From NCBI RefSeq assembly GCF_015244565.1, contig NZ_JABCQG010000007.1:1-64000 (forward strand): DNA of 64,000 bases. The letters run 5' to 3'. Made by a program: the position numbers and the translations under genes. Below, in pieces: positions 34,707 through 42,310 of this stretch. The notes beneath the pieces were generated by a model. It ran no database searches. It saw only the letters and a list, made by a program, of their open reading frames with translations, and had not been told where the DNA came from. Position 1 is the first letter of the stretch. Each line of letters starts with the position of its first letter. Source of the DNA: Gluconobacter vitians. GTDB taxonomy: Bacteria > Pseudomonadota > Alphaproteobacteria > Acetobacterales > Acetobacteraceae.

Positions 34707-35744
34707 TCAGCCGATCAGCCCCTCATCCTTGAGCACGCGTAGCGCATACTGGATGCGATGCTTGTACAGATGCTCAGCCTGCGTCCGTGCCTGAGCCTTG
34801 CGCGCCATTGCCACACGCAGATCATTGTTGTCGAGATAGGTCGCTATCAGCCGCTCGAAATCCACCCGGTTGGAGAACACCGGAATCTCGTCCGCAGAAT
34901 AATAGCGGCGGATCTCATGCGTATCCTCGTGGAACACCTGGAACGCCCCTGCCAGAGCCGCCTCGAACGTCCGCGGTCCCGGTGTGGACGGCGCGATGAT
35001 GAAGCGCTTGTTCTCAAAGCTCAGCGAGCGGCCAAGGTTCAGCACCAGCTTGGAGCGGCGATAAAGCTCCACGAGCTGGGACTTCTCGATCCGCGCATCG
35101 GAGAACCCGATCCCCAGTTCGCCCCAGCCCGGCCCGACAATCTTGATGTTCAGGTCCCGCAGCGCAGGCAGCAGGTTGCGGACGATGTCCTTGCGGTTCG
35201 TGAACGCCACGCCGCAGAACAGGACATCAATCGTCTTCTGGGAATTCGCTTCGATCTCGCCGTAATGCAGCTTCGGGCTCGCTGCCAGCGGCAGATGGAA
35301 CACCCGCTCGCGCTGGTAGAAATTATGCCCCCAGCGGTCGCAGGAGAAGATCACGTCGAAATCATCGGCGATGCGATAATTCGCATCCTGCTCATAGGGA
35401 TCTTCCGTCGCCCAGAACACCGTCACCGCGCCGATCTTCTTCGCCTCGCGGCAGACTTCGCCGAAATACGTGCTTTCCGGAAGATAGGAGCCGATGGCGA
35501 ACACAATCGTCGGCTTCAGGATCCGGATCGAACTGGCCGCAGCCGAGATATGAACCGCAGTGACATTATCCTCGCCAAAACAGTCCGCCCAGCCATCCAT
35601 GATGGACTCACGGATCTGGGCGTTGGCCTGGCTTTCATACCGGCCCCCGCTGCAGACAAGAACACGCCCGGTCAGGCCCGTATCCGTCCCGGCGCCCGCA
35701 TTTGCTTCCGTGGATTCCACGATCGCTTCATTCACTGCGTCCAT
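34707..35744 (-). CDS. CgeB-like GT-B glycosyltransferase
   Basis: A 345-aa protein of the CgeB/DUF3880 glycosyltransferase type. Recognisable parts are an N-terminal half with FWATEDPYEQDANY, FSCDRWGHNFY and VFHLPLAASPKLHY, and a C-terminal half with IDVLFCGVAFTNRKD, the GPRTFEAALAGAFQVFHED box and a basic HLYKHRIQYAL end. These features recur in the N-terminal third of the 1115-aa protein at 38810-42157, so the two are paralogues. Substrate unknown; CgeB-like proteins glycosylate cell-surface polymers. It is the last of three leftward glycosyltransferase genes, with AGGAAGG before ATG 35744. Confidence 0.8.
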   Translation of the reverse strand: MDAVNEAIVESTEANAGAGTDTGLTGRVLVCSGGRYESQANAQIRESIMDGWADCFGEDNVTAVHISAAASSIRILKPTIVFAIGSYLPESTYFGEVCREAKKIGAVTVFWATEDPYEQDANYRIADDFDVIFSCDRWGHNFYQRERVFHLPLAASPKLHYGEIEANSQKTIDVLFCGVAFTNRKDIVRNLLPALRDLNIKIVGPGWGELGIGFSDARIEKSQLVELYRRSKLVLNLGRSLSFENKRFIIAPSTPGPRTFEAALAGAFQVFHEDTHEIRRYYSADEIPVFSNRVDFERLIATYLDNNDLRVAMARKAQARTQAEHLYKHRIQYALRVLKDEGLIG

Positions 35745-35794: not shown

Positions 35795-38785
35795 TCATGC
35801 AATGCAGCTCTGAACAATGTCTGACAGCGCCTGCCGGAACCGGACCGGAGAACAGTCCCGCTCGACAGCCGCCAGCGCGCCCTGCCTCAGCTTTTCCCAC
35901 AGTTCCCCATCCTGATACAGCCGGACCACCGCCGCCGCAAACGCTTCCGCATCATTCGCCGGCGCGGAAAGCAGTTCAACCCCGTCCGTCCAGCCCACCT
36001 CGTCCCGAAGCAGCGTCGTTACCACCTGCGGCAGCCCATAGGACGCCGCCTCGTGAACCTTGAACGGAATGCCTCCTGCAAACCGCGTCGGCGCCACAAA
36101 GACCCGGTGCCGGTCAAACAGTTCCTGAGGATCGCCAACCGGCCCCACGATCTCCACCCGGTCATTCGTCGAAAACACCGTCATATCCACGCCCGGCCCC
36201 ACAAACCCGGCAATAGTGAAATGGACATCCGGAGGCAGAACCCCATCCAGCAACGGCACCACCTTCTCCACGAACCAGACGAGACTGTCGTGATTGGGGG
36301 CACCCTCATCGTGGATGGCTCCGAAGAAGAGAATGTTGTGACGGTTTTCGAAGGCGGCCGGCGTGGGCTGGGCATGAAGTTCATGTCCCAGGACGGAGAC
36401 ATTTTCATGGCCCGCACGGCGTACGAGGCCGGCGTCATGAGAGGTCACCGTGATGATCTGCTGGCAGAATCTGGCACAGTCCAGTTCCTGCTGCAGCATC
36501 TCGTCAAAGCTGATGTCGGGTTCAGGAAGACCCAGAATCCGGATACGCTCCATCGTACGTGGCGTGGCGATCACTTCCGTATCCAGGACGGGTCCCGACG
36601 CCGGAAGATAGCGGCTCGATTCATTCAGTAACGGCAGAAGACGTGCCATGTTATGTGTGCGGCCGATCCAGACCAGATCGTAATATCCGACGCGCTCCTG
36701 GATGAAGTCGGCAAAACTGGACAGATCCTGGTTGACGATCAGTTCCACCGTTTCAGGAAAATCCCCGAACAGGTCAATGGCCGTCTGGTCCCTAAGCATG
36801 ACCGGAAACACCGTGACCTGATATCCCAGAGCCGTCATCTCACGAATAATGTCATTGGAGCGGACATAACCTGATCCAAGACGGCGAAGGGGCAGACGGT
36901 CCTCAATGAAGAGAACCCGCTTGCGCTGGCTGACCCGGTGTTCCCGTCCCAGGATGGCATTGCGGATATGGGCCGGCTGCTGATGGCGCAGGAAATCCTG
37001 CTGCAGCCGGGCAAAAGTTTTCAGATTGCCGCGGATCAGGGCATGGGACCCGGCCGCTCCTGAACTTCCGAACTCCAGATGCTCGATGACGACGCCTGGA
37101 TCATAGACGATGCGCATCCCTGCCTTGAGGATACGGACGCAAAGATCCGCATCCTCGAAATAGGCCGGCATGTAACGGGGATCATACCCTCCAAGGCGAC
37201 GGAGCAGCGCCGTGCGAACCATGAGGAAGGCTGCCGAACAGTAATCGACATCCCTGACGAAATTGGCATTCGTCAGGTTCGGATCGTCTTCGCGAAGGTA
37301 GCCATAGGTCGCACCATCCCGCCAGATAATGGAACCAGCTTCCTGAAGACGCATGTTGGTCCGGATCAGCTTGCCACCAACGGCCCCGATATTGGCCTCG
37401 GCACGCAGCCGTTTCAGGGCATGAACAATGGCATCGGGATACAGGCGGATATCATTGTTCAGATACAGGACAAACGGTGCTTCGGCCTTCTCCAGCGCGA
37501 GATTGCAGCCCTGAAGATAGCCGATATTGTGCCGGTATCGGAGGATCGTAGCGCCATGGACCATCTGTCCGATATGGCGGGTCTGATCGTGCGAGCCGGA
37601 ATCCACGAGCACAAGCTGGATGGCGCCGGCATAGTTGGCGCGGAGCGAAGCCAGAGCCTGCGCCGTCAGGGCGACCCGGTCATAGACAACCATCAGAACA
37701 CTGATTTCTGGAATACCGTGAACGGTAAAATCCAGAGGATGGCGGACCAGTGACGGCAGAATGGCCTCGGCCTCACGCTCGAACAGGAGCCTCGACTGTT
37801 CTTCGGGAAGCTCGGACACCGCCGCAAGGGCTGCTATCCGCCCCTCGCCCAGCCCCGTGCGGCCGGCAACCAGATGCGCAAATGCGCTGTCATAAAGCCG
37901 GTTGCGGACGTCATTGCGGACCTGTGCCTGCGCCATATGGGCAGCAAGGTCCACATCTTCCTTCGGAGCGCGGCCTTCATGCGTACCGTAACGGACGAAA
38001 TGGTCATAGCCGTTGCGAAAATATCCATGCTCCAGCGAAGGCACCATGTCCGGATGGGCCTGCCGATAGAACTCTTCGGAAAAAAACTCCTGCGGATCGA
38101 AAAGGCGCGGTGTCTCGTTGGTGAGGTAATGGTGCAGGGCGCTTGAATAATGTCCCGCAGCAATTTCCTGACGGACTTCGGGATAACGCGTCAGATACCA
38201 GACTGGATCGAAATACCAGGAGACCCGGCCTGCATCGGCGACATGGGCCGGAAGACCAAGCCATGACCCAAAGAGGCCAATCCGGCTGTCAAAATGATCC
38301 GGGAATGTCAGCGCAAGTTCACGGCAGAGTTCATCATCAAAGAAATGATGTCCGCGGTAATAATGGCTTTCTCCGATTTCCAGGTAATGATCATAGCCAT
38401 TCCGAAAGCCATTTTCGCTCAGGAAACGTTGTGAAAGCTCCGGATAGCGCCGACGATAGCCGGGCTCATCAAACAGCCAGTGTGGAGAATGGGTCTTGTA
38501 ACCGGTCTTCGTATAATGTTCGAAGCCTGAGGCCCATTCTTCCCGGATCAACCCCTGACGCACATCCTTATGTGCGTCACGATACCACATTTCATCAAAA
38601 TAGCGGTTCGGGGAATGTCCGTAACGCTGCCCGGTCTGCAGGTAGAATACATGTGGGTCTTCCTGCCCCTCTTCCTGCATCCAGTCCCGCACCTCGGGAT
38701 ACCGCAACAGGTACCATTGTTCATCAAATCGGAACCAGCGGGGAGTCCGGGTTTCTGATGTGGGAGCTGAAATACTTTCAGACAT
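35795..38785 (-). CDS. Large GT2-GT4 glycosyltransferase with six N-terminal repeats
   Basis: A 996-aa multi-domain protein. Residues 17-274 contain six approximately 43-residue repeats (starting near 17, 60, 102, 147, 189, 232) with core F-D-x-x-x-Y-x-x-x-Y-P-E-V ... H-Y-x-x-x-G; the fourth is degenerate. Next comes a GT2 domain (about 360-590) with ISVLMVVYDR, LVLVDSGSHD, a DXD-like LYLNNDIRLY and YFEDADLCVRILKAG. Then a GT4-like GT-B domain (about 630-990) with VLFIEDRLPLRRLGSGYVRS, FGAIHDEGAPNHDS, APTRFAGGIPFKVHEAASYG. Two transferase domains could add two sugars in turn. The repeats occur in other alphaproteobacterial giant transferases, and their role is unknown. GGAGG lies 9 nt before ATG 38785. 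Sits between the two CgeB-related genes. Confidence 0.85.
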   Translation of the reverse strand: MSESISAPTSETRTPRWFRFDEQWYLLRYPEVRDWMQEEGQEDPHVFYLQTGQRYGHSPNRYFDEMWYRDAHKDVRQGLIREEWASGFEHYTKTGYKTHSPHWLFDEPGYRRRYPELSQRFLSENGFRNGYDHYLEIGESHYYRGHHFFDDELCRELALTFPDHFDSRIGLFGSWLGLPAHVADAGRVSWYFDPVWYLTRYPEVRQEIAAGHYSSALHHYLTNETPRLFDPQEFFSEEFYRQAHPDMVPSLEHGYFRNGYDHFVRYGTHEGRAPKEDVDLAAHMAQAQVRNDVRNRLYDSAFAHLVAGRTGLGEGRIAALAAVSELPEEQSRLLFEREAEAILPSLVRHPLDFTVHGIPEISVLMVVYDRVALTAQALASLRANYAGAIQLVLVDSGSHDQTRHIGQMVHGATILRYRHNIGYLQGCNLALEKAEAPFVLYLNNDIRLYPDAIVHALKRLRAEANIGAVGGKLIRTNMRLQEAGSIIWRDGATYGYLREDDPNLTNANFVRDVDYCSAAFLMVRTALLRRLGGYDPRYMPAYFEDADLCVRILKAGMRIVYDPGVVIEHLEFGSSGAAGSHALIRGNLKTFARLQQDFLRHQQPAHIRNAILGREHRVSQRKRVLFIEDRLPLRRLGSGYVRSNDIIREMTALGYQVTVFPVMLRDQTAIDLFGDFPETVELIVNQDLSSFADFIQERVGYYDLVWIGRTHNMARLLPLLNESSRYLPASGPVLDTEVIATPRTMERIRILGLPEPDISFDEMLQQELDCARFCQQIITVTSHDAGLVRRAGHENVSVLGHELHAQPTPAAFENRHNILFFGAIHDEGAPNHDSLVWFVEKVVPLLDGVLPPDVHFTIAGFVGPGVDMTVFSTNDRVEIVGPVGDPQELFDRHRVFVAPTRFAGGIPFKVHEAASYGLPQVVTTLLRDEVGWTDGVELLSAPANDAEAFAAAVVRLYQDGELWEKLRQGALAAVERDCSPVRFRQALSDIVQSCIA

Positions 38786-38809: not shown

Positions 38810-41800
38810 TCAGGAATTGATTTTTTCCGCGAGCAGGCGTTCGGCGCGTTCAACATTGGACGGCTGGACATCGACCTGCTCGACGGAGAGAATCGCCCCG
38901 TTATCGAATGTCACAGCAATATCGGTCATCCTCGAGCCGAAGACATCTCCGACAACATTCACCAGAATGAAGCGATAGACCCCATCAAGCGGGCAGGCAT
39001 AGCCTTCACGCGGCATGAATACACCGCTGAATCCAACGCCGAGAGGGGCATCACGATGCACAGTTCCGACATCGGCCCGGCTTACCCGCTCCATGGCGAA
39101 GAAAACGATCTCGTCCCGGCTTTCCGAGACCAGGCCGCCATAGACCTGACCGGCGCGGGACAGATTACGGAAGAACATCCAGCCGCGGACAGTCAGAGGG
39201 CCTTCCGGCTCCAGAACAGGGGGCGGGTTCCCAAGCAGCCCGCTGAAATCATCAATGTAATAATCCAGCGCACCTGAAGTGCAGGGATGCATCTGATGCT
39301 TGCCAACATCGGACAGCTTCACGCCACGCATCAGGCCATCGCTTTGGGACACACGACGGAAATCGGACAACACCAGATCGTTGGACGGGAAAGAACGGAC
39401 AATGTCCCGAATCTGTCCCCCTTCAACCTCGATCTGAACAGGGGTCAACTGGAAGGCACCCTGTCCGTTGATCACGTTGATCAGACCAATCCGGAAACGT
39501 CCTTCACACCATTTGCCACGCAGGGCGACCTTGCCTGAAAAGCCGGAACGACGGGGCGCATTTGTGAAGAGTTCCGCGATATCAGTCCGGATTTCACGCT
39601 GACATTCGAGGAAAATCATGGCGCTGTCAGGATCTTCACCGATCAGGACCGTGAACATCTGGCCAGCGGAACTGATACCGGGAAGGATCATCCAGCCGCG
39701 AATATGAAATTCAGGCGCGCCTTCGAAAGGTTTCTCTTCGATATCGGAAAAGACATGATGGCAGACGTCATCAATGTAACATTCGCCCCCCTGCACCGAA
39801 AACCAGTCCAGAACCGGAACCGGCATTTCGACGGACAGATCACGTGCAGTCGGCGGATCGAAGATATGACGCGGCGGAGCCTGATGGCGCCAGGTTGCGT
39901 GGGGCAGCAGATGGACCTGCCCTGCATCCAGACGAAGTTCCGACACACCCATGTCACGACGGGGCGCCATGTCGTGATAAAGTGCCAGCAACTCGTCCGC
40001 ATAATCACGCGCATGGGTCCAGAGCGCAGGCGTAATGTTCTGCATGATCTGGCGACGCAGCGGCTCGGATGAGCGCAGCAGTTCCAGACGTTCGAGCACC
40101 ATGCTTGGGCGACTGATGGGAACCTTGAAACCGTTGACGCCATCTTCGACCCGGTCTCCCAGAGCCCCCACATCGGTTACGATGGGGACCAGACCATTCT
40201 GCCAGGCTTCAGAGAGGGATATGCAGTAAGTCTCAGGCCAGATTGACAGATTCAGCGCAACATCCGCGACCTTCAGCGCCTCGATATCGCCCATCTCATA
40301 CCGGCCATAGATCTTGACATGCGGCCGCGGGACCGAGGTCAGGACGGCTTCATATTCCGGATGCACGTAACCGAAGATGTGGAAAACGAAATGGTCCGGA
40401 TGGGCGATATCGATCAGGTTGAGGATCGTATCGGCACCCTTGGTGCGCAGGAAGTTTCCGACGATCGCAACGCCAAGAGGACGGTCTCCCAGCGGCTCGT
40501 AGGGCTTCATCAGAACGGGAACGGTATTGTCGGGGCTTGGGATGCCCATGACAAGACTGCGCTTGGTATCAAGAACCGGATAGATCTCGTGCGTCAGGTT
40601 CCGTGAATGATCTGTTCCGAACAGGATGGCGTCAACGGAATGGAGCATCTTGGCCACGAAGGCACGGCGGGTCTGTTCACCGCCATGTTCAACATTTTCC
40701 GATGCCTTGAGCGTGATGTCGGACGCAAGGACGGAACGGACCTCGTCCTCGACATAGCGGAGTTCATGATTGAGGAGATTGTAACGGGCGGAAAGCAGCC
40801 AGAAATCATGCGCTGAGAAAATCACACCGGCGCCATTGGCCTTTGCGATGATTGGCAGCGAGAGTGCGTGGTGGCCCAGATGCTGAAAATGGACAATGTC
40901 GATATTGTACTGGCTGACGACACTGGAAAACGCCATTTCCTCCGGCGAATCACACATCGCGTCCTGCCAGCCCACTTCCGGCACATCGAAACGTTCAAGT
41001 TCGTGACCATTTGCCGTGGTCAGGCGGCAGAACCCTCCACGACGCAGCCAGTAAAAATATTCGACATCGCGCGACAGGAGTGTGCAGAGACCCTGCTGAT
41101 AGACTTCAACGCCTCCCCATGCCTGCTCATGAATCGTGGAATGCGTGCACATCAGCACACGCAGACGGCGACGACGCTGCAGGGGAGCCGGGCGCTGGGT
41201 CCGACGTCCGAAATCAGCTCCGGTGATTCCACGCATCTTCTCAAGGCGGTGCTCATAAAGATGCTGCGATATTACTGATTTCTGCGCGGCCAGAGCTGCA
41301 TTGTGCCGTGTGTCGTGTTGCTGGAGTAGCCTGGCAATAGCATCCACGACCTGATTCGCATTCCGCGCCAGGGCAATTCCATCTACGGTCTCGAAATACT
41401 CGGCACTCATGCTTTCGGGTGCTTCGACGACCTGGGCGGCACCTGCCAGCGCAAGTTCGAAGAAACGCGGTCCCGGAGCCGTAGCCTGGCTGACGTCACC
41501 ATGGCTAGCATAATCACGGAACATGGTCAGGGTGACGGCGCTGACATTCGCGAAATCGATGAAGGCTTCGTGGCTGATTGGACGCTGGATGGCCAACGCT
41601 GCCAGATCTGCCGGCAGGGGCGGCAGGAATTCGTTGGTCGGACAGACAAGCTTGAGGCGGGCATCAGGGAATGCCGCGATCACCTTGCGCAGGGTATGGA
41701 CCCGGTTGGGCCACATCGTCCCGGCAAAGAAGATGTCATATTCCAGTTCGGAAGCGGGAAGAACCGGTCTTTCATGAATCGACGGGCTGGCGGCCAGTGG

Positions 41801-42157
41801 AAGATAGTGTCCCTTGCCGTGATAATACTCTGCACAGGACGGATCATTCGTGAAGACGTAGTCGAAAAGCCCGGCATTTTCGACATTGAAGTCCCGCATG
41901 AAAGGATCTTCGAAGGTCCAGAGGATCATGGTGCTGAATGCGGGTCGGACACGGCGGATCAGCGGCAGATTGATACGCTGGGCATCAAGACAGATCAGAA
42001 CATCATGTTCGCCCGAAGCAGCGATACCTGCCAGACTCATGTTGTCTGCAACGACAACCTGTTCCTTACCGAAAAGTGACTGTGCCGCCCTCTGTACGGC
42101 GAGGGTCAGATAGGAATTGGGATTGTGGGTATAGTTCGTATTATAAATAACCGCCAT
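38810..42157 (-). CDS. Giant CgeB-GT4 glycosyltransferase with tandem C-terminal domains
   Basis: An 1115-aa protein. N-terminal third (about 1-330): CgeB-like, with LWTFEDPFMRDFN, HYLPLAASPS, YDIFFAGTMWPNR and GPRFFELALAGAAQVVE. Middle (about 345-745): GT4 with VLMCTHSTIHEQAWGGVEVY, IVHFQHLGHH, IFSAHDFWLLS, VAIVGNFLRTKGAD and a C-terminal nucleotide-sugar region. C-terminal third: two copies of an approximately 125-residue domain (about 793-916 and 966-1091) sharing Y-I-D-D, R-G-W-M, A-G-Q, a D-I/V-x-x-x-x-x-x-A-P core, G-F-S-G and a F-I-x-x-x-N-V segment. The TTG at 42160 is in frame just before the chosen ATG at 42157. First gene of the leftward set. Acceptor unknown. Confidence 0.83.
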   Translation of the reverse strand: MAVIYNTNYTHNPNSYLTLAVQRAAQSLFGKEQVVVADNMSLAGIAASGEHDVLICLDAQRINLPLIRRVRPAFSTMILWTFEDPFMRDFNVENAGLFDYVFTNDPSCAEYYHGKGHYLPLAASPSIHERPVLPASELEYDIFFAGTMWPNRVHTLRKVIAAFPDARLKLVCPTNEFLPPLPADLAALAIQRPISHEAFIDFANVSAVTLTMFRDYASHGDVSQATAPGPRFFELALAGAAQVVEAPESMSAEYFETVDGIALARNANQVVDAIARLLQQHDTRHNAALAAQKSVISQHLYEHRLEKMRGITGADFGRRTQRPAPLQRRRRLRVLMCTHSTIHEQAWGGVEVYQQGLCTLLSRDVEYFYWLRRGGFCRLTTANGHELERFDVPEVGWQDAMCDSPEEMAFSSVVSQYNIDIVHFQHLGHHALSLPIIAKANGAGVIFSAHDFWLLSARYNLLNHELRYVEDEVRSVLASDITLKASENVEHGGEQTRRAFVAKMLHSVDAILFGTDHSRNLTHEIYPVLDTKRSLVMGIPSPDNTVPVLMKPYEPLGDRPLGVAIVGNFLRTKGADTILNLIDIAHPDHFVFHIFGYVHPEYEAVLTSVPRPHVKIYGRYEMGDIEALKVADVALNLSIWPETYCISLSEAWQNGLVPIVTDVGALGDRVEDGVNGFKVPISRPSMVLERLELLRSSEPLRRQIMQNITPALWTHARDYADELLALYHDMAPRRDMGVSELRLDAGQVHLLPHATWRHQAPPRHIFDPPTARDLSVEMPVPVLDWFSVQGGECYIDDVCHHVFSDIEEKPFEGAPEFHIRGWMILPGISSAGQMFTVLIGEDPDSAMIFLECQREIRTDIAELFTNAPRRSGFSGKVALRGKWCEGRFRIGLINVINGQGAFQLTPVQIEVEGGQIRDIVRSFPSNDLVLSDFRRVSQSDGLMRGVKLSDVGKHQMHPCTSGALDYYIDDFSGLLGNPPPVLEPEGPLTVRGWMFFRNLSRAGQVYGGLVSESRDEIVFFAMERVSRADVGTVHRDAPLGVGFSGVFMPREGYACPLDGVYRFILVNVVGDVFGSRMTDIAVTFDNGAILSVEQVDVQPSNVERAERLLAEKINS

Positions 42158-42310
42158 CAAACTTCTGGGCGCGGACGCCCACTCCCACTCCTAACTGAAC
42201 CGCCGTTTTTCAGAACACCAAGTCTGTCTACAGCATTGGTATCCCGTATAATTTGTAGCTGATGACATGGAAGATCAAAAGCCCATCGTGAAAGATTAAC
42301 GCCAAACTAA

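Follow-up and report, generated by a model that had tools for sequence, protein, structure and literature searches.

A stretch of 64,000 nucleotides of Gluconobacter vitians DNA (contig NZ_JABCQG010000007.1, positions 1 to 64,000; hereafter, the window) encodes a 996-residue protein in which a predicted helical array of seven repeat units precedes two glycosyltransferase (GT) domains, a GT2 and a GT4. The main new result of our analysis, read from aligned sequences, is that a sister copy of this protein keeps the array while key motif residues of its GT domains have been lost. Because conserved positions of the array are retained at 91 to 97% in the dead sister, compared with 42 to 48% for the GT domains, and because a trio of copies has lost the GT2 motifs only, the array is, on this evidence, selected independently of catalysis, and this selection is common to the active and the dead protein. 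The series of active, half-dead, and dead copies amounts to a natural experiment that separates the role of the array from catalysis. In the reading that we favor, to which we give an even chance, the array docks a partner that both proteins recognize, the active GT2-GT4 enzyme as well as the sister whose catalytic sites are dead.

The open reading frame (ORF), which lies on the minus strand, is present with its units ahead of GT2 and GT4 as a preliminary description of this DNA had proposed, and its parts are as follows.

35795..38785, minus strand: 996-residue protein, helical array of seven units followed by the GT2 and GT4 domains (ORF, Pfam, full-length AlphaFold model)
38603..38731, minus strand: unit 1, residues 19-61, leave-one-out score 23.7 bits
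38477..38602, minus strand: unit 2, residues 62-103, leave-one-out score 30.0 bits
38345..38476, minus strand: unit 3, residues 104-147, leave-one-out score 31.9 bits
38216..38344, minus strand: unit 4, degenerate, residues 148-190, -2.0 bits; predicted helices 151-160, 170-176, and 180-183 in register
38087..38215, minus strand: unit 5, residues 191-233, leave-one-out score 42.4 bits
37955..38086, minus strand: unit 6, residues 234-277, leave-one-out score 35.1 bits
37826..37954, minus strand: unit 7, degenerate, about residues 278-320, from a shuffle test; predicted helices 280-285, 287-294, and 301-310
36956..37720, minus strand: GT2 domain, residues 356-610 (PF00535, E = 7.4e-13, match 362-486; NND 443-445, ED 544-545)
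35816..36928, minus strand: GT4 domain, residues 620-990 (PF13692, E = 4e-19, match 816-959; R901, K909, E912)

Active, half-dead, and dead copies

Both GT domains of the window protein carry conserved motifs. The GT2 domain combines its profile match with an acidic DxD-like motif and a catalytic acidic motif, and N443, N444, D445, and E544 are invariant across 45 orthologues. The GT4 domain combines a profile match, the fold (best Z 31.9 against solved GT4-type enzymes, root-mean-square deviation 3.4, 345 residues aligned), and the R/K and E residues that are conserved in the C-terminal lobe, with R901, K909, and E912 invariant in the same 45 sequences. In these families, the NND/ED residues of GT2 and R901, K909, and E912 of GT4 are taken to be catalytic.

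The same genome holds a second full-length copy that is 35% identical to the window protein. Copies of this dead type were found in at least 23 genomes of a 200-genome sample of the family (22 checked by motif, G229 by similarity only). Among 23 aligned dead copies, the GT2 residues N443, D445, and D/E545 are kept in none, N444 in one, and E544 in four; of the GT4 residues, K909 is kept in none and E912 in six. All eight active rows of the alignment retain these residues. Pfam still recognizes the GT domains of the dead protein as GT2 and GT4, and the motif losses suggest that the sister copies are catalytically dead. They form one clade with 100% support in a Shimodaira-Hasegawa-like approximate likelihood ratio test (SH-aLRT; 18 of the 23 were in the tree, which like the other trees here is a quick one).

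Retention was measured in 17 dead representatives over the columns that are at least 90% conserved in the 45 active orthologues. The dead copies keep 91% of these columns in units 1-3 (29 columns) and 97% in units 5-6 (24 columns), compared with 42% in GT2 (73 columns) and 48% in GT4 (83 columns); for the degenerate unit 4 and the unit-7 region, the values are 78% (3 columns) and 60% (4 columns). Pairwise identity follows the same pattern. In units 1-3 and 5-6 it is 0.48 and 0.54 among the 17 dead representatives versus 0.47 and 0.59 among eight active proteins, while in GT2 and GT4 it is 0.28 and 0.30 versus 0.61 and 0.53. As a control, three divergent active-type proteins kept 0.67-0.96 of the array and 0.70-0.86 of the GT columns, with no split between the two.

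An intermediate state is seen in Acetobacter musti, A. estunensis, and A. sicerae, whose second copy has lost the GT2 motifs and kept those of GT4. In this half-dead trio, 93-98% of the array columns are retained, with 51-55% of GT2 and 99-100% of GT4. In a quick tree with 12 dead rows, the trio and the dead clade are sisters, with joint support of 100% SH-aLRT; the outgroup, one dead row, and L247 were flagged there for long branches. On the simplest reading of these sequences, GT2 was lost first and GT4 later, with the array retained throughout.

The array as a fixed block and its relatives

The homology of the units was assessed with leave-one-unit-out profiles built from 22 diverse members and compared with about 1000 shuffles per unit. 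Units 1, 2, 3, 5, and 6 of the window protein all score above the shuffled maximum of 13.1 bits and, by this sequence comparison, are homologous at a level well beyond chance. Some relatives have a weak unit 1 (with the 22-member profiles, the minimum is 2.9 and the median 16.1). Unit 4 of the window protein scores no better than its shuffles and is placed by position and predicted helices only. Unit 7, tested as residues 274-316, exceeds the 99th percentile of shuffles in 43 of 57 family members and reaches 9.7 bits in the window protein against a shuffle maximum of 9.0. The array of the window protein is consequently counted as five clear and two degenerate units (4 and 7). The preliminary description had counted six homologous units; five of these stand, its fourth has no sequence signal, and the seventh had been missed.

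An AlphaFold model of residues 1-350, made from an alignment of 45 sequences (the window protein and 44 of 79 named loci), has a mean predicted local distance difference test score (pLDDT) of 90.8 and a predicted template modeling score (pTM) of 0.82. It is almost entirely helical, with about three short helices per unit, and units 4 and 7 lie in register. The full-length model is confident throughout (pLDDT 90.5, pTM 0.84). The array is thus predicted to be an alpha-solenoid, and of the two options that the preliminary description had put forward, a solenoid or separate helical hairpins, the model favors the solenoid. The N-terminal 260-300 residues would then be one fixed domain, a seven-unit alpha-solenoid, rather than a loose string of repeats.

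Whether the units are a known domain had also been raised. The array has no family match in Pfam, NCBIfam, or PHROGs, and the units of four unit-bearing relatives are likewise without a Pfam family. A sequence search of solved structures returned only chance-like rows for the array: the engineered protein OR264 (E = 0.0072) was rejected as a relative since no stretch passes singly, and a HEAT_R1 peptide (E = 1.8) and NOP5-related proteins (E = 1.2-1.3) were dismissed as chance-like. In a Foldseek search of the PDB with the array model alone, the best E was 7.4, and none of six chains aligned at Z of at least 2. This absence applies to the libraries searched and does not prove a new fold. The PDB matches of the full-length model come from its GT domains and are uninformative on the array. 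Against a viral structure library, the array model gave 17 weak rows, of which the top two, from Fadolivirus (E = 0.014) and Hyperionvirus (E = 0.26), are glycosyltransferases of giant viruses. The accessible part of an account of giant-virus sugars (PMC10117803) makes no mention of such units, and a scan of viral contigs with the full protein found no relative. The accessible text of the literature searched, with subscription papers and preprints outside its scope, holds no description of the units.

Among orthologues, the array is old and fixed, to judge from the sequences. In a search set of 41 genomes (the window's own and 40 relatives), a full-length orthologue was present in 25/25 genomes of the window's genus, and none of 16 genomes from other families of the class reached E = 1e-60. 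At that threshold, 110 of 200 genomes of the family have a match, some of them, among the matches listed, over the GT part only. Clear units (above 10 bits) were counted in the 76 of 79 named loci that yielded a whole ORF (L123, L126, and L130 were lost to a position filter). There are five in 60 orthologues, six in 13, and 15 in three, so that 73/76 have five or six. In all 13 orthologues with a sixth clear unit, it occupies the position of unit 7.

The three orthologues with 15 units are from Commensalibacter and carry the whole block three times in tandem before one GT body; the protein of G161 has three blocks as well. The nine Commensalibacter blocks form one clade (95% SH-aLRT). Since blocks 1, 2, and 3 are each common to all three records, the block appears to have been duplicated whole before these lineages parted, and the domain is, on this sequence evidence, the block and not the unit. 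An origin of the extra blocks from a dead paralogue was rejected because this clade stands apart from the blocks of the dead and half-dead copies and because all five Commensalibacter genomes searched lack a second full-length copy at E of at most 1e-5. The other rows at this threshold are these same blocks, short proteins with two units, and a single match confined to GT2. Elsewhere, further active-type relatives occur beside the orthologue on G077:C43, G019:C25 (L033), G016:C26 (L034), and G107:C45 (L247), with motifs checked for L033, L034, and L247 only. One orthologue with 43% identity (L158) lies on a contig labeled Geothrix in a metagenome-assembled genome, reflecting either a binning error or a transfer.

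Related units are found well beyond these orthologues. A profile made here from 17 units (A3; consensus FD-WY / HY-G) has 21 matches in six ORFs of the window's own genome, including a 1260-residue protein with five canonical units before WbsX, GT4, and GT2 (L064:4063-7842, plus strand, contig C2). At E of at most 1e-7, the profile had matches in at least 25 of the 299 genomes sampled from the phylum, the window's own included. The 20 regions fetched from positive genomes hold 23 unit-bearing ORFs with 2 to 18 units each. Elsewhere the units are mostly about 36-38 residues long and variable in number, whereas here they measure 42-43 residues and form a fixed seven-unit block. Pfam searches of 17 of the 23 ORFs gave 12 with glycosyltransferase-type or sulfotransferase matches at E of at most 0.01 and five with none; ten of the 12 are above the curated cut-off, and one GT4 match and one sulfotransferase match are below theirs. 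Two more ORFs, which bring the Pfam coverage to 19/23, are a GT2 protein and a protein of about 200 residues without a domain. The enzyme types beside related units are GT2, GT4, RgpF, WsaF, WbsX, and a possible sulfotransferase. The repeat thus occurs in many bacterial glycan enzymes, yet it is unmatched by the three family libraries used here. At the extremes, one 1980-residue ORF has 18 units ahead of three GT2 stretches (L208:3-5942, minus strand), one of 1256 residues has 11 units but lacks any Pfam match at E = 0.01 (L211:1547-5314, minus strand), and Commensalibacter-type ORFs of about 180-200 residues, such as L227:2357-2947 (plus strand), have two units; the one that was scanned has no Pfam domain.

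The locus and the genomic places of the copies

The gene is the middle one of a three-gene cassette. Its position between two CgeB-related genes, noted in the preliminary description, is borne out by PF13524 matches in both neighbors.

38810..42160, minus strand: CgeB-like plus GT4 protein of 1116 residues, first cassette gene (Pfam PF13524 and PF00534; synteny)
34707..35744, minus strand: CgeB-like glycosyltransferase, third cassette gene (Pfam PF13524, E = 5.5e-28, and DUF3880)

On one side the cassette is flanked by rpsA, cmk, and aroA, on the other by an M16-type peptidase gene, all named from sequence without profile assignment. The nearest named orthologues of the window protein are from Gluconobacter, with 88-92% identity. 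A CgeB homologue was found in 55/79 named loci, taking up to 10 kb on each side of the orthologue where the contig permitted. In ordered maps of 16 loci, it is adjacent in those of the Gluconobacter-Asaia-Ameyamaea type and absent from most others. In the 1116-residue neighbor, the C-terminal part (about residues 790-1116) consists of two homologous stretches with 30% identity (BLASTP E = 1e-14) and has no Pfam match of weight. According to the accessible part of PMC12041372, disruption of a GT2-like gene of G. oxydans B58, GO_2946, which may or may not correspond to the present gene, raised bioleaching.

The dead copy has a different neighborhood, which in its fullest form reads pyrF, secB, the copy, an M20 peptidase gene, pdxA, and pdxJ (SecB, PF02556, and M20 assigned by Pfam, the others named from sequence). 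A tblastn search detected secB in 14 of the 19 regions with a dead copy (not in L236, L237, L239, L240, or L242), and it lies beside the half-dead copy in all three Acetobacter species. As a functional clue, this neighborhood is a weak hint. In Endobacter medicaginis, the only copy at E of at most 1e-60 has active motifs and lies after secB; the secB side may therefore be the ancestral place.

A proposed docking role, its alternatives, and known systems

The preliminary description had suggested that the units may bind glycan or organize acceptor chains; the dead-paralogue evidence supports a docking role, for which the ligand could be of several types. If the array is selected without need of catalysis and is common to both proteins, docking a common partner is the simplest job for it. 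Candidate partners are an acceptor protein, a transferase such as the other copy, and a glycan or lipid carrier. In this scenario, the two proteins arose by duplication of one active copy. The duplicate that lies beside rpsA, with CgeB-type genes on its flanks, would have kept both active sites, and the other, mostly next to secB, would have lost GT2 activity and later GT4 activity while retaining the docking domain. The dead copy might now serve as a non-catalytic partner or regulator.

Several points weigh against this reading. Docking, a shared ligand, and a partnership of the two proteins are what we infer, and the partner is still putative. Catalytic death is read from motifs. Dead copies keep some residues of the pockets (R901 in 17/23, D735 in 21/23, and D395 in 13/23), and an otherwise active-type protein, L274, is without E912, so that the loss of E912 alone is no proof of death. 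The ratio of nonsynonymous to synonymous substitution rates (dN/dS) was 0.039 for the array, 0.068 for GT2, and 0.117 for GT4 in four Gluconobacter dead copies and 0.026, 0.041, and 0.069 in four active copies, values that are rough at a dS of 0.8-1.4 and of which only the order is meaningful. By this measure the GT domains of the dead copies are still under purifying selection, and these domains may serve a function or bind some ligand. The array is also better conserved than GT4 in active enzymes, and the contrast seen in the dead copies may be partly intrinsic. An active-type copy is present in 23/23 of the sampled genomes in which a dead copy was seen, but this co-occurrence is one clade and one event, not 23 independent cases, and the main active orthologue of G118 is split over two ORFs that overlap. 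Finally, among 30 loci, 22 have both a CgeB-type neighbor and a dead second copy, seven have neither, and one (G161) has the neighbor only, an association that falls mostly within one clade and hence is not independent evidence.

One alternative, which we consider unlikely, is that the array is an intramolecular scaffold that stabilizes or folds the GT2-GT4 body, and that the dead paralogue keeps it for its own folding. The confident full-length model, with a high pTM for 996 residues, is compatible with rigid packing of the array against the GT domains, and the dead GT domains, still recognizable and under purifying selection, would need to fold. However, a pure stabilizer would be expected to drift along with the body it stabilizes, whereas the dead GT domains drift to identities of 0.28-0.30 and the array, at 0.48-0.54, holds the level of active enzymes. 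The three complete blocks per GT body in Commensalibacter likewise argue against a scaffold.

It is also unlikely, in our estimate, that the array is a glycan-binding module that holds a growing surface polysaccharide for both transferase domains. The polysaccharide-type enzymes that accompany related units fit such a role, as do the aromatic residues that are conserved and frequent in the array. These aromatics are largely positions of the repeat motif, however, and may be helix-packing residues. In addition, five of the 17 unit-bearing proteins have no Pfam domain at E = 0.01 and two more have matches below the curated cut-off only, and neither sequence nor Foldseek searches found a solved carbohydrate-binding relative.

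A cytoplasmic flagellin glycosylation pathway, with flagellin docked by the array, is very improbable. CgeB-type neighbors and the lack of a recognized export gene beside the gene would suit protein glycosylation. But among 30 selected orthologue-bearing genomes, all at least 90% complete, ten have no match to the flagellin N-domain (G048, G053, G069, G080, G086, G109, G112, G139, G140, and G161); in 14 control genomes, the same search gave four positives, E. coli and B. subtilis included. Flagellin was accordingly rejected as a universal acceptor, and a flagellin-only use is unlikely. The suggestion that six units in a row are a striking, recent expansion of a one- or two-copy unit, to which the many proteins elsewhere with just two clear units lend some color, is almost certainly wrong, given the orthologues throughout the genus, the five or six units in 73/76 of them, and single ORFs with 8-18 units elsewhere.

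Known systems offer partial parallels to the docking arrangement. Both neighbors of the gene belong to the CgeB-like transferases (PF13524), while the protein itself has no PF13524 match in Pfam up to E = 1 and by that criterion is outside the family. The units share an identical consensus with the widespread FD-WY / HY-G units of transferases; scored against chance with a profile that omits the unit in question, five of the seven belong to that family, unit 4 fails, and unit 7 is weak. In O-GlcNAc transferase (GT41), a solenoid of tetratricopeptide repeats (TPRs), each of 34 residues in two helices, lies N-terminal to the transferase and recruits acceptors. The predicted solenoid here is likewise N-terminal to transferase domains, but its units have 42-43 residues and about three short helices, its enzymes are GT2 and GT4 instead of GT41, and no TPR or GT41 family is among the Pfam matches of the window protein up to E = 1.

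The GtfA-GtfB pair of streptococci and lactobacilli (accessory Sec glycosylation) provides a further comparison. According to the accessible part of PMC6973325, GtfA and GtfB contact the acceptor and each other through DUF1975, with GtfA as the transferase and GtfB as a chaperone. One add-on domain is likewise common to the active protein and its catalytically degenerate paralogue here, but this add-on is a predicted helical solenoid, with no DUF1975 among the Pfam matches of the active or the dead protein, the enzyme is a GT2-GT4 fusion, and the active and dead genes are at separate loci. The present pair would at most work like GtfA/GtfB and is not a member of that system. A bolder version, which we regard as improbable, is a GtfA/GtfB-like system for protein glycosylation in Gram-negative bacteria. 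The bifunctional GT2-GT4 enzyme and the dead sister would both use the shared, structurally new solenoid to capture polypeptides in the cytosol ahead of their export by Sec, and CgeB-type enzymes would extend the glycan. Capture before Sec export is suggested because the dead sister mostly, and the only active copy of Endobacter, lie directly after secB; Commensalibacter would use three solenoid blocks on the enzyme instead of a second copy. If docking is the role of the array, Gram-negative bacteria would have a counterpart of the GtfA/GtfB scheme, in which an active transferase is paired with a sister that holds the acceptor. The series of active, half-dead, and dead copies makes what the array holds a directly testable question in Gluconobacter, a tractable and harmless organism.

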